Source: Roseibium sp. Sym1
GTDB taxonomy: Bacteria > Pseudomonadota > Alphaproteobacteria > Rhizobiales > Stappiaceae
Direction of reading: 5' to 3'
Assembly (NCBI RefSeq): GCF_027359675.1
Contig: NZ_CP114786.1
Span: 2,578,501-2,642,500 of the forward strand
DNA length: 64,000 nucleotides
A program made the position numbers and the translations under genes. Below the pieces are notes generated by a model. The model saw only the letters and a list, made by a program, of their open reading frames with translations. It did not search any database and had not been told where the DNA came from. Positions 44,144 to 47,667 of the stretch are shown in pieces (the first letter of the stretch is position 1; every line of letters starts with the position of its first letter).

Positions 44144-44524
44144 ATGGCTCAGATCACCGTCACCATCAACGGCAAATCCTTCCGCATGGCCTGTGACGAC
44201 GGCGAGGAAGAGCGGCTCCAGGGACTCGCGGGACGGTTCGACGGCTGGATCAACGAGCTGCGCGGGGCCTTCGGCGAGATCGGCGACCAGCGCCTCACCG
44301 TCATGGCCGGTATCATGGCAACAGACCAGGTCTCCGAGCTGGAGCGCAAGGTGGCGCAGCTGGAAGAGGATCTGGCCGAGGCCCGGAAGCAGCAGGTGTC
44401 CGCCCTCGACGACATGAGCCAGAACGAGGAAGAGCTTTCCAGGGCGGTCAACCAGGCCGCAGCGCGTATCGAGAGCCTTGCGGACAGTCTTTCCAAGAGC
44501 CTCAAATCATCCGAGGCCTCCTGA
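44144..44524 (+). CDS. zapA: Cell division protein ZapA
   Basis: A 126-residue ZapA, which bundles FtsZ filaments at the septum. The N-terminal half is the conserved globular region (AQITVTINGKSFRMACDDGEEERLQGLA, RLTVMAGIMATDQV), and the second half a coiled coil used for dimerisation. It is cotranscribed with the DUF4164 gene. In alphaproteobacteria zapA is usually followed by 6S RNA and fau; here 2.9 kb of minus-strand DNA (HET-C-like, radical SAM and peptide genes) intervenes. Confidence 0.9.
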   Translation: MAQITVTINGKSFRMACDDGEEERLQGLAGRFDGWINELRGAFGEIGDQRLTVMAGIMATDQVSELERKVAQLEEDLAEARKQQVSALDDMSQNEEELSRAVNQAAARIESLADSLSKSLKSSEAS

Positions 44525-44571
44525 TCCGGCCGCGGCCGCATCTGTCTCGGCGGTCTGACAGTGCCTTTCTT

Positions 44572-45234
44572 TCAGTTGGTTTCCCGCAAACCGCGCATGA
44601 TTTCGACAAGATCCTCGAGATCCGGCGGCGTTTCGACCGCCGTTGCCGCAATTGCCGCCGGCGGTAGCTGCGCCAATCGGCTGAATTGTAGCTTTGAGGC
44701 GGCGAGCGCGGCGGAAAAGGCCAGGTCGAAGTAACTTTTGCCCGTGTTCGGTCCGGAGGAGACGACTTTCGATCCTTCCGGCGACTTGGGACTGTCCTTG
44801 TTGAGCTGACTGTGGGACGGTGCCCCGGGCCCGCAGAGCTTGGGCGAGCCGAGGGACCAGGTTCCGCTGACGATATTGGCCGGCAACGACGACAGCTTCA
44901 AATCCCAGGTTGGAACCGGATCGCTGTCCAGATGCAACTCGATCCAGTTCGAGTGCGCGTAGAAGTCCTGGACCGTGTGCAGTAACGCGCCGAAGGAGAC
45001 CAGCGCTGCGTCGGACCGATTGCCTTGCGTATCAATCGCGTTCCACTCGTCGTCGATATGGCCGATCCCGCCCGGAAAATCGCAGTTGTCGAAGTGGATG
45101 AAACTTTTCGTCTGGAAAAGATCCTGCGCGATGTTTGCCGCGACCACAATGCCGAGCTGCTGACTGTCCAAAAGGGTGCCGTTCGCCAATTCGGTGATTT
45201 CCCCGTGATATCCGATTTCAAATTCGACCGACAT
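44572..45234 (-). CDS. HET-C-like putative zinc hydrolase
   Basis: A 220-residue protein with two clustered His/Asp motifs: SFIHFDNCDFPGGIGHIDDEW (about residues 44-64) and LLHTVQDFYAHSNWIEL (84-100). HTVQDFYAHSNW is the hallmark of HET-C/VWA7-type proteins, related to zinc-dependent phospholipase C. Likely metal ligands are His47, His86, Asp90 and His94. No signal peptide is seen. It is the last gene of the minus-strand peptide locus, 126 nt after the radical SAM gene. A role in processing, immunity or an independent lipase activity is open. ATG 45240 is an alternative start. Confidence 0.72.
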   Translation of the reverse strand: MSVEFEIGYHGEITELANGTLLDSQQLGIVVAANIAQDLFQTKSFIHFDNCDFPGGIGHIDDEWNAIDTQGNRSDAALVSFGALLHTVQDFYAHSNWIELHLDSDPVPTWDLKLSSLPANIVSGTWSLGSPKLCGPGAPSHSQLNKDSPKSPEGSKVVSSGPNTGKSYFDLAFSAALAASKLQFSRLAQLPPAAIAATAVETPPDLEDLVEIMRGLRETN

Positions 45235-45360
45235 GGGCATCTCTCTGCTCACAAGGGATTGCTGGATGATCCTGCTTTCGCGTGACTTTATGCGGAAGCA
45301 GGAAATTTCATTCTTTCAATAAGTTGCGGCATCTTTCGCGTCCGGTTGAACGCGGTTTCC

Positions 45361-46758
45361 CTAGTTCAGGAAAGGCCCGCCACAATTGGGGTCCTTGGCA
45401 AGGTATTTGCCGCTCTGGTTAAACGCGTCGACAAAGCACGACGTCCTGCACATGTGCAGCTTGCTGCATTTTGCGCAGTCCGGATCGATCCGTGCCGGGT
45501 CGACGGTTCTCTCCCGGAGCGCCTGAAACGCGTCCCCCTGCCAGATCGCTCTCAGGCCGCTGTCGAAAACGTTGCCGTAGGTGAAGTCCTTGACACCGTG
45601 CATCTTGTCGCAAACCGAGACGTCACCGCTCGGAAAGATGGACATGCCCATATTGATCCCGCCGCAGGGGTACCAGTCATCCTGACCCCATTTCCTGGTG
45701 GCGTCCTTCGGCGGGTGTATCGTGCAAACGGACATGTATTCATCCCGCTTGGCGAGAACGGCTTTTCGCACCTCAAGGAGTTCACCGGTCGAGATGTTGT
45801 CCGAAAGGTTCGCCCCGGAATTCAAGGCTCCGCTTTCCATGTAGGAGATGCCGATTTCAGAGACGCCGAGATCCGCCAGCATGTCTATCATGGGAACGAT
45901 CAGATGCCGGTTTTTCGGTGTGAGCACGCATTTGATGACGACGCGGATTCCGCTGTCGACGAGGTGCTCGATCGCTTTCAGGACCTTTGGAAACTGCCCT
46001 TTGGACCGGGTGATTTCGTCATGAAGCTCCGCATTCGGGGCGTCGAAGCTGATCGTGATTTCCTTCATGCCGGCGGCGGCCAGGCGCTGGGCATATTCGG
46101 GGCTTGTGCCGATGACGGTGCCGTTGCTCGTCATTGTCGGGATCATGCCACGGCTCAGGCCACGCTCAATCAGCTCCAGCCAGCCCTTGAATATTGTGGG
46201 CTCTCCTCCTGTCAGTCCCAGAAAGACGACACCCCAATCCGCGGCTTCATCGACCAGGCCCAGGCATTTGTCAAAGGTCCACATCTTGCCGTCCGGCTGC
46301 AGCAGGTCCTGGTAGCAGTAGGAACAGTTGAAGTTGCACTTGAAGGTCAGCGTGATGTTGATTCCGGCCGGGACAGGCCATTGGCCGTAGGTGGCATTTG
46401 CGATGGCCGCGTCGTCGCCGGGATAGAGAAAATCGCTGGGGGACAGACGGGCTTGAGGCATGCTGTCCGGTGCCGCCGATCTGGGAACCTGTTTCACAAA
46501 TACCTGAAACTGATCGATAAACCGGGCAATGCGTGGCTCTGCGTCTGCTGGGGGAAGCCGGAAGGTCGAGCCGAAAAGATAGGAGATTTCCGGTAAGGTA
46601 TAGGTGCCGTTGCAGAGGCTGAGGAAGAAAGCCTCGGAAGGGTGAATCATGCGGATCAGCGACGGATGGTGGCCATGCACCAATGCGTAGCCGTTCATGG
46701 GTTTGAGGTAGATGCCATCCTTGAGTTTGGGGGCTGGCAGAGCTTGCTGATAGGTCAT
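45361..46758 (-). CDS. Radical SAM/SPASM peptide-modifying enzyme with PqqD-like domain
   Basis: A 465-residue enzyme. Residues 12-85 form a PqqD-like winged helix (YLKPMNGYALVHGHHPSLI, SEAFFLSLCNGTYTLPEI), the RiPP recognition element. The radical SAM cluster motif is CNFNCSYC, with Cys141, Cys145 and Cys148, followed by GLTGGEPTIFKGW. The C-terminal SPASM domain is complete: C365-x12-G-x4-C383, C428-x2-C431-x5-C437-x3-C441, and C459, ligating two further FeS clusters. This architecture is that of sactipeptide/ranthipeptide-type maturases that cross-link cysteines or other residues in a precursor. The 62-residue Cys-tailed peptide encoded just upstream is the obvious substrate. Confidence 0.9.
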   Translation of the reverse strand: MTYQQALPAPKLKDGIYLKPMNGYALVHGHHPSLIRMIHPSEAFFLSLCNGTYTLPEISYLFGSTFRLPPADAEPRIARFIDQFQVFVKQVPRSAAPDSMPQARLSPSDFLYPGDDAAIANATYGQWPVPAGINITLTFKCNFNCSYCYQDLLQPDGKMWTFDKCLGLVDEAADWGVVFLGLTGGEPTIFKGWLELIERGLSRGMIPTMTSNGTVIGTSPEYAQRLAAAGMKEITISFDAPNAELHDEITRSKGQFPKVLKAIEHLVDSGIRVVIKCVLTPKNRHLIVPMIDMLADLGVSEIGISYMESGALNSGANLSDNISTGELLEVRKAVLAKRDEYMSVCTIHPPKDATRKWGQDDWYPCGGINMGMSIFPSGDVSVCDKMHGVKDFTYGNVFDSGLRAIWQGDAFQALRERTVDPARIDPDCAKCSKLHMCRTSCFVDAFNQSGKYLAKDPNCGGPFLN

Positions 46759-46830
46759 GGCGTCGCTTCCCTGGGCTTTTGCCGGTCGAACTGCCGGATC
46801 TTCCGTCTGGCTGAAGAGGGGTCGGAGTGG

Positions 46831-46864
46831 AAAGAAAGAATGTCCGGCGCTCGTCGCGCCGGAC
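46831..46864 (-). terminator. Attenuator-like hairpin between peptide and radical SAM genes
   Basis: A perfect 9-bp stem GTCCGGCGC/GCGCCGGAC with 5-nt loop (46864-46842 read on the minus strand), followed by ATTCTTTCTTTCC. The U-rich but interrupted tail suggests partial termination, giving more peptide message than enzyme message. Confidence 0.7.
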
Positions 46865-46873
46865 ACCAGGATT

Positions 46874-47062
46874 TCAAAGCGGTTGAACCTGGATGCAGGT
46901 CGAAAGAATGTTCCAGCACCCCGACTCGCAACTTGCTTTCTCCGCACCGCTGGACAACCTCTTGGCACGGGCTTCGGCGCGATCTGCTTCGGCGCGAAGT
47001 TGTTCCGCCAAGCCTTTCAGGTACTCAGGCGTGTGGAGAAGGCCCGGTTTGTCATCTGCCAT
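46874..47062 (-). CDS. Candidate RiPP precursor peptide
   Basis: A 62-residue peptide. Residues 1-42 form a charged, helical leader (MADDKPGLLHTPEYLKG, then Ala/Glu/Arg-rich). The C-terminal 19 or so residues are the likely core: CESGCWNILSTCIQVQPL, with Cys45, Cys49 and Cys56 (C-x3-C-x6-C). The ATG at 47062 has AGAGAGGAA 7 nt upstream, a strong site; the ORF runs further up without one. It precedes the radical SAM/SPASM gene with an attenuator between. I know no described RiPP class with this core. Confidence 0.8.
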   Translation of the reverse strand: MADDKPGLLHTPEYLKGLAEQLRAEADRAEARAKRLSSGAEKASCESGCWNILSTCIQVQPL

Positions 47063-47466
47063 GAGATATTCCTCTCTTTTTTGGACATGTTGCAAAAAAG
47101 GCCGACAGCGCATGCCTCAAAAAGCATTGCCATTTGAGTGTATTAGAAACAATGTCGACCACAAGTTGCATATTGTGAATTTGATTCAAATTTATCAACA
47201 ATATAAAATATTCGCTCGAATTGATGAATCTACTTAGGCCTACAAACTTTTGTTTGAAATAATTATGCTTTTTCGTAACTAAGTATGATTTCGTATGTGC
47301 CTATTTTTTATTTAATTACCTCTTGGTAAGGCATGATCCGAATGCATCGCGGCAAAGGCCGAAAACCGGACAGGTCTTTTTCGGGGTGAGCTTTCTGAAG
47401 CGGTTCGTTTGTGGCGAATTCCATGCCGCTCTGGTAATTGCGGCGAGGCCGGATTATATGCGGTAG
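47063..47466. other. AT-rich promoter region of the peptide locus
   Basis: About 400 bp without a gene. Bases 47110-47335 are strikingly AT-rich against a high-GC genome, which fits acquired DNA and a strong promoter. It contains the candidate promoter at 47170-47198 for leftward transcription. The right end grades into the 6S RNA upstream region. Confidence 0.65.
47170..47198 (-). promoter_or_regulatory. Candidate promoter with embedded palindrome for the peptide locus
   Basis: On the minus strand TTGATA (47198-47193) and CAATAT (47175-47170) are 17 bp apart. The spacer holds a 15-bp palindrome, AATTTGA-x-TCAAATT (47178-47192), where a repressor could block RNA polymerase. The -10 match is only fair. 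Confidence 0.45.
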
Positions 47467-47620
47467 TTGCGGCTGCCCGATACGTCAGGAACATTATCCC
47501 CGGGGCCTTACGCATTCCTTCGGGAGCTGTCCCTGCGCTGGGCCGTGGTCCGTTGCATACGGCGCCCACCTACATTGTAGGTTCTCCGGGATTGCAGATC
47601 CAACGGTCGGGCGGCTGCGC
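47467..47620 (+). ncRNA. ssrS: 6S RNA
   Basis: About 154 nt. The ends form a 12-bp closing stem, GCGGCTGCCCGA (47469-47480) with TCGGGCGGCTGC (47607-47618), allowing G-U pairs. The 3' half has GGCGCCCACCTACATTGTAGG, resembling alphaproteobacterial 6S sequences, and the gene stands directly before fau, the classic 6S location. 6S RNA mimics an open promoter to sequester housekeeping RNA polymerase. Exact ends are estimated. Confidence 0.75.
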
Positions 47621-47667
47621 ATTTCCTTCCGAAAGAGAGCGGGCCGGTAAATATTGTTTGAGGGCCC

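Follow-up and report, generated by a model that had tools for sequence, protein, structure and literature searches.

On the minus strand, three genes follow one another in the same direction, from 47062 to 44572, in a 64,000-nucleotide stretch of the Roseibium sp. Sym1 genome (contig NZ_CP114786.1, positions 2,578,501 to 2,642,500; hereafter the window). They encode a 62-amino-acid (aa) precursor peptide, a radical S-adenosylmethionine (SAM) enzyme with a SPASM domain, and a Het-C-like protein, in the same-strand order that a sequence-only reading of this DNA had given. Judged by family libraries and open-access papers, the locus is best read as an undescribed family of the type that makes ribosomally synthesized and posttranslationally modified peptides (RiPPs), and we put at roughly 0.6 the probability that it is a cassette for a cross-linked peptide with the Het-C-like protein as its functional partner. 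Taken by itself, a cross-linking cassette is very probable; its functional tie to the Het-C-like protein is probable, if less secure. RiPPs made with SPASM enzymes are already known; what would be new is the precursor with its tail and the partnering by Het-C, and none of these had a match in the family libraries or the open-access paper searches used. Judged by title, none of the open-access papers that the searches returned linked radical SAM enzymes or RiPPs to Het-C, to Afifella, to rhizobia, or to phospholipase C.

A conserved precursor and its enzyme

The peptide gene is not a chance open reading frame (ORF), since a database search with the peptide returned 15 homologues, the changes in its tail are mostly synonymous, and other bacterial families have the same gene order. 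As had been claimed, it follows a strong ribosome site (AGAGAGG, 8 bases before the ATG) and encodes Cys45, Cys49, Trp50, and Cys56 near a C terminus that reads SCESGCWNILSTCIQVQPL. C45, G48, C49, N51, T55, C56, and P61 are invariant, and W50 nearly so, in a 16-row alignment (A1). At the DNA level, we examined 17 loci that hold an enzyme of this family (the window, L002, L003, L004, L082, L083, L084, L148, L149, L150, and L166 to L172, with L175 left out as a repeat of L002), and a peptide orthologue lies upstream of the enzyme on the same strand in 17 of 17, so that no enzyme homologue among them lacks a nearby peptide. The conserved precursor, the enzyme's architecture, and the fixed gene order thus bear out the call of a RiPP-type locus.

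Detailed comparison of the peptides covered 16 of these loci, L150, a near copy of L082, being set aside. Between the window and Afifella pfennigii (L002), the last 18 codons differ mostly synonymously (synonymous differences [ps], 0.71; nonsynonymous differences [pn], 0.06). Over these codons pn is 0.06, 0.04, and 0.07 against L002, L166 (sampled within the family of a Novosphingobium genome), and L167 (from the Afifella order, as are L168 and L169), versus 0.20, 0.23, and 0.27 over the other codons. By these comparisons the tail is near-frozen across bacterial families, unlike an arms-race peptide.

The proposed C-x3-C-x6-C core held as a recurrent feature and failed as an invariant one. The GCWN...C tail with all three cysteines occurs in 11 of 17 loci. 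Five rhizobial loci (L003, L004, L170, L148, and L149) have the variant tail RRPDWPGCWNTK-x-IS-x-NCTEH, in which GCWN is kept, C45 is lost, and the distal Cys is shifted; the enzyme spacer is longer there. In L083 the motif is gone from the peptide, whose end reads KQPCCSPILCASVGG, and the L149 enzyme is split into two pieces. The variant tail probably works, because purifying selection acts on the enzymes at three of the loci that carry it (dN/dS, 0.06 for L003-L004 and 0.20 for L003-L148). Of the 16 loci tested, 11 have a stable hairpin after the peptide gene (z, −1.6 to −6.0); the other 5, which lack it, are precisely the variant-tail loci (z, −0.4 to 0.6). As a scan of the region for terminator-like sites gave no excess over shuffles, the hairpin of the window is claimed from this cross-locus comparison.

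The enzyme start that agrees with the homologues is the ATG at 46758 (465 aa); an alternative ORF of 535 aa, beginning with GTG, overlaps the peptide gene. Pfam places Radical_SAM (6e-25) and SPASM (6e-10) on the protein. Both the cluster motif (C141-x3-C145-x2-C148) and the complete set of seven SPASM cysteines (C365, C383, C428-x2-C431-x5-C437-x3-C441, and C459) are present as the sequence-only reading held, and all are invariant in a 31-row alignment (A2). The structural model matches the SkfB and SuiB structures, with PqqE also among the best matches. Its N-domain runs through strands and then three helices, and the structural alignment to SuiB begins at residue 10 and takes in the leader-binding domain, the RiPP recognition element (RRE); the PqqD-like N-domain that had been proposed therefore stands by model and alignment.

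No cataloged family fits, as had been supposed: the best 25 of 79 NCBIfam matches all fall far under their cutoffs, the top one at 106.9 bits against 500. The sactipeptide maturase StsB (NF045574) reaches 106.3 bits against a cutoff of 625, and the ranthipeptide maturase PapB (NF047865) reaches 67.8 against 340. In streptide, the precursor carries a link between Lys and Trp, and SuiB/SuiA is not known to have a Het-C partner. With SuiB (PDB 5v1q, 5v1s, and 5v1t) the window enzyme shares 17% identity. From the thioether maturases SkfB, CteB, and StsB the system differs in its score, far below the StsB cutoff, in its tail motif, and in its Het-C partner. PqqA, the precursor of pyrroloquinoline quinone (PQQ), has a Glu/Tyr pair that the window peptide tail lacks, and, unlike PqqE/PqqD, the window enzyme has no other pqq genes with it in the insert that holds the cassette.

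By its family, the enzyme would make thioether or carbon-carbon links. Other radical chemistry on the tail, such as a Trp-Asn carbon-carbon link, epimerization, or desaturation, with the cysteines binding metal or forming disulfides, is unlikely. It is favored by the presence of a SuiB-type carbon-carbon linker among the nearest folds and by the rhizobial variants, which keep GCWN without C45, so that the reaction may center on W50 and N51.

Two more distant loci each carry three consecutive RRE-SPASM enzymes that share about 30% identity with that of the window, with a small Cys-tailed ORF upstream (79 aa in L173, 6290 to 10800, from a deltaproteobacterium; 75 aa in L174, 7418 to 11909, from Lachnospiraceae). 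They are unlike the window in the tripled enzymes, in their tails, and in genomes without Het-C. The present family probably belongs, as one branch, to a larger set of RRE-SPASM enzymes that go with Cys-tailed peptides. In a Rhizobium plasmid locus (L148, 999 to 4206), two further radical SAM genes lie by a 77-aa ORF, perhaps another peptide system.

The proposed Het-C-like partner and its history

The bacterial Het-C domain is known from fungal incompatibility and polymorphic toxins, and the Het-C protein is related to fungal cell-death proteins. In the window it is a protein of 220 aa that stands on its own next to a RiPP-type pair, instead of forming one domain of a large toxin. Its Podospora namesake, HET-C, has a glycolipid-transfer fold (PMC10197012). 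Calling the protein HET-C-like proved sound: VWA7_N scores 43.9 bits (2.4e-11) against a gathering cutoff of 27.5, with Het-C itself just under its own (5.7e-4; 19 bits against 21). The protein carries HTVQDFYAHSNW, and in a 49-row alignment (A3), H10, N34, D38, H47, D49, H86, D90, H94, S123, and G124, among others, are invariant. In the comparison with the Het-C hydrolase domain (PF07217) and VWA7_N (PF25107), H10, D38, H47-x-D49, H86-x3-D90-x3-H94, and S123-G124 correspond to the residues that PMC3482391 lists. Against the same list, the conserved His/Asp metal-ligand pattern of zinc-dependent phospholipase C and S1-P1 nuclease is found in the 49 rows, and its Nxx[DE] element has no clear counterpart in the window protein. 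The model has a pLDDT (predicted local distance difference test score) of 92.4. By its family, the protein may hydrolyze something.

Among the 120 Het-C relatives listed, out of 135, 7 (P0139, P0154, P0158, P0162, P0164, P0167, and P0168) have a PLAT domain (PF01477) fused to VWA7_N/Het-C. This is an arrangement of phospholipases C, and the fusions suggest lipid-acting Het-C forms.

Six of the 17 loci (the window, L002, L166, and L167 to L169) have Het-C directly downstream of the enzyme on the same strand, and in whole-genome searches it was the sole Het-C match of its genome in 6 of 6. The same searches gave no Het-C match in five rhizobial genomes or in three genomes with distant three-enzyme clusters; for plasmid-bearing hosts, chromosomes were left out. 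A Het-C profile run on 398 Pseudomonadota genomes returned only the window's own protein and one domain in a 1358-aa frame. The latter (L207, genome G1441; E 2e-16) is a Het-C-type match inside what is perhaps a large modular protein.

The pairing was also followed in metagenomes, where linkage was inferred from equal size of the longest contig, compared by eye, among the matches listed (120 of 135 Het-C relatives; enzymes to E 1e-30). Of 33 other enzyme clusters for which a contig is given, 12 share it with a Het-C cluster, and 5 of 15 peptide clusters share theirs with an enzyme cluster. Since the Het-C-linked clusters include P0035, P0036, P0039, P0040, P0041, and P0043, equal contig size suggests that Het-C also accompanies enzymes only 45 to 49% identical to that of the window. 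On a quick enzyme tree of 47 rows (no bootstrap, a long-branch warning for distant rows, L149 and L150 left out, and 14 rows without a Het-C label not counted), the labeled family rows need one change, a loss of Het-C on the rhizobial-clade branch (support 99). Because a single loss is enough, the presence of Het-C looks ancestral; rhizobia can do without it.

Several observations weigh against a cross-linked-peptide cassette partnered by Het-C. The enzyme stands without an adjoining Het-C gene in 11 of 17 loci, all of them rhizobia and Mesorhizobium, so that the proposed partnership, and the co-occurrence of all three genes, held for 6 loci and not as a universal rule, in contrast to the peptide-enzyme pair. 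Many listed Het-C relatives are on contigs that match no listed enzyme. No solved structure in the PDB gives a useful match to the model of the Het-C-like protein, which leaves its hydrolase activity a prediction. PqqD (PF05402) gives no significant sequence match in the window protein and a weak profile in 3 of the 31 A2 members (best E 0.062), so that the PqqD-like call fails as a sequence match. Tail constraint is not the stronger between L082 and L084 (pn, 0.17 for the tail and 0.15 for the leader), and the insert has no protease or exporter gene. The first two points, together with the five rhizobial genomes that gave no Het-C match, would suit a Het-C gene that is a carried-along neighbor of a functional unit of peptide and enzyme. 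We consider this quite improbable, given the pairing with 45 to 49% identical enzymes, the single loss, the fixed position and genome-wide uniqueness where Het-C occurs, and the near-empty profile search.

Distribution and insertion site

Searches for the enzyme gave hits in 1 of 61 relatives (the window's own, with none among 36 congeners), 1 of 385 genomes of the class (again the window's own), 4 of 394 genomes in the Ensifer family, 1 of 347 in the Novosphingobium family, 4 of 150 in the Afifella order, and 6 plasmid records; the genome draws overlap and include their center genomes, which count among the hits of the Ensifer and Afifella draws. In the window the cassette lies between zapA and the 6S RNA gene (47467 to 47621). 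A search of 40 congeners gave 29 loci, and the cassette is absent there in 29 of 29, with a zapA-fau distance of 297 to 518 bp versus 3146 in the window by the same measure. The right edge of the insert is at 47404 in 4 of 4 comparators, and the left edge falls within 44499 to 44524. The three genes have a G+C content of 0.58 to 0.59 in a window of 0.62. Upstream of the peptide gene, 47063 to 47403 is AT rich (0.37 G+C), and a simple scan found no minus-strand sigma-70-like promoter in it. The best explanation would be a rare, patchily distributed, horizontally acquired cassette (Table 1).

Table 1. Features of the cassette, in window positions
Feature	Positions	Strand	Evidence
62-aa precursor peptide gene	46874..47062, stop included	−	ORF, ribosome site, 15 homologues, alignment A1
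Cys-containing peptide tail, residues 45-62 (CESGCWNILSTCIQVQPL)	46877..46930	−	A1 invariance, few nonsynonymous changes in most comparisons
Hairpin and T-rich tract directly 3' of the peptide stop codon	46839..46867	−	Counterpart hairpin in 11/16 loci
465-aa radical SAM/SPASM enzyme	45361..46758	−	Pfam, alignment A2, model, structural matches
Predicted RRE (PqqD-like) leader-binding domain, residues 9-92	46483..46734	−	Model topology, SuiB alignment, weak PF05402
CxxxCxxC radical SAM cluster motif, residues 141-148	46315..46338	−	Sequence, A2
SPASM region, seven Cys, residues 365-459	45382..45666	−	Pfam, A2
220-aa Het-C/VWA7_N-like protein, predicted zinc-dependent hydrolase	44572..45234, stop included	−	Pfam, A3, model
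HTVQDFYAHSNW (HxxxDxxxH) motif, Het-C-like protein residues 86-97	44944..44979	−	Sequence, A3
Insert between zapA and 6S RNA gene, relative to congeners	44525..47403		Congener comparison

Very patchy presence is a trait of conflict genes, and together with an enzyme fold and Cys-bearing tail that resemble sactipeptide and ranthipeptide systems it would fit an exported antimicrobial or signaling RiPP, with Het-C as a tailoring, release, or self-protection factor. The odds of this are poor, as the insert has no exporter, peptidase, or immunity gene and the tail is conserved rather than diversified. PQQ and the small subunit of quinohemoprotein amine dehydrogenase are precedents for a further alternative, that the modified tail is a peptide-derived cofactor or cross-linked structural subunit for the Het-C-like protein or another enzyme. 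A near-frozen tail, an insert without an exporter, and the structural match to PqqE all speak for it; we nevertheless hold it to be rather unlikely, there being no common oxidoreductase partner (quinone-oxidase-type genes occur only in two near-identical Mesorhizobium loci) and the rhizobial peptide and enzyme persisting without Het-C. In those two loci (L082 and L150, 1 to 5083), on Mesorhizobium plasmids, genes for a tyrosinase, a LodA/GoxA-type cysteine tryptophylquinone (CTQ) oxidase, and a flavin adenine dinucleotide (FAD) oxidoreductase lie upstream, and they were not seen in the other loci.

A proposed mechanism and its meaning

For the cassette with a Het-C partner, we infer a course of five steps. 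The precursor would be made probably in excess over the enzyme, which we propose because a hairpin follows its stop codon, and its charged leader would be bound by the RRE domain. The enzyme would then cleave SAM, take hydrogen from a tail residue, and join that residue to a tail cysteine, most likely through thioether links, between one and three of them, around GCWN...C. An unlinked protease would remove the leader. Last, the Het-C-like protein, predicted to be a zinc-dependent hydrolase of the phospholipase C/S1-P1 kind, would act as functional partner, most likely as an intracellular effector bound and regulated by the modified peptide; such regulation, taken as a claim of its own, is tentative and somewhat unlikely. 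A still bolder version, in which the cross-linked peptide restrains or activates the hydrolase inside the producer as a toxin-antidote pair or cell-death switch, appears distinctly improbable. The one-way loss in rhizobia, with the hydrolase gone and peptide and enzyme kept, some of them decaying, is the picture expected if the toxin was lost first.

The system is small, with one enzyme and a peptide of 62 aa, and Ensifer supplies a natural GCWN...C variant that can show which cysteines matter; the chemistry is therefore open to direct testing. The precursor/enzyme pair, new to the best 25 of 79 NCBIfam models, belongs to alphaproteobacteria (Afifella kin, a sphingomonad relative, and rhizobial plasmids), and through it the bacterial Het-C domain would gain a conserved small-peptide partner. 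If the bolder version were true, the antidote in such a toxin-antidote or cell-death switch would itself be a posttranslationally cross-linked peptide.
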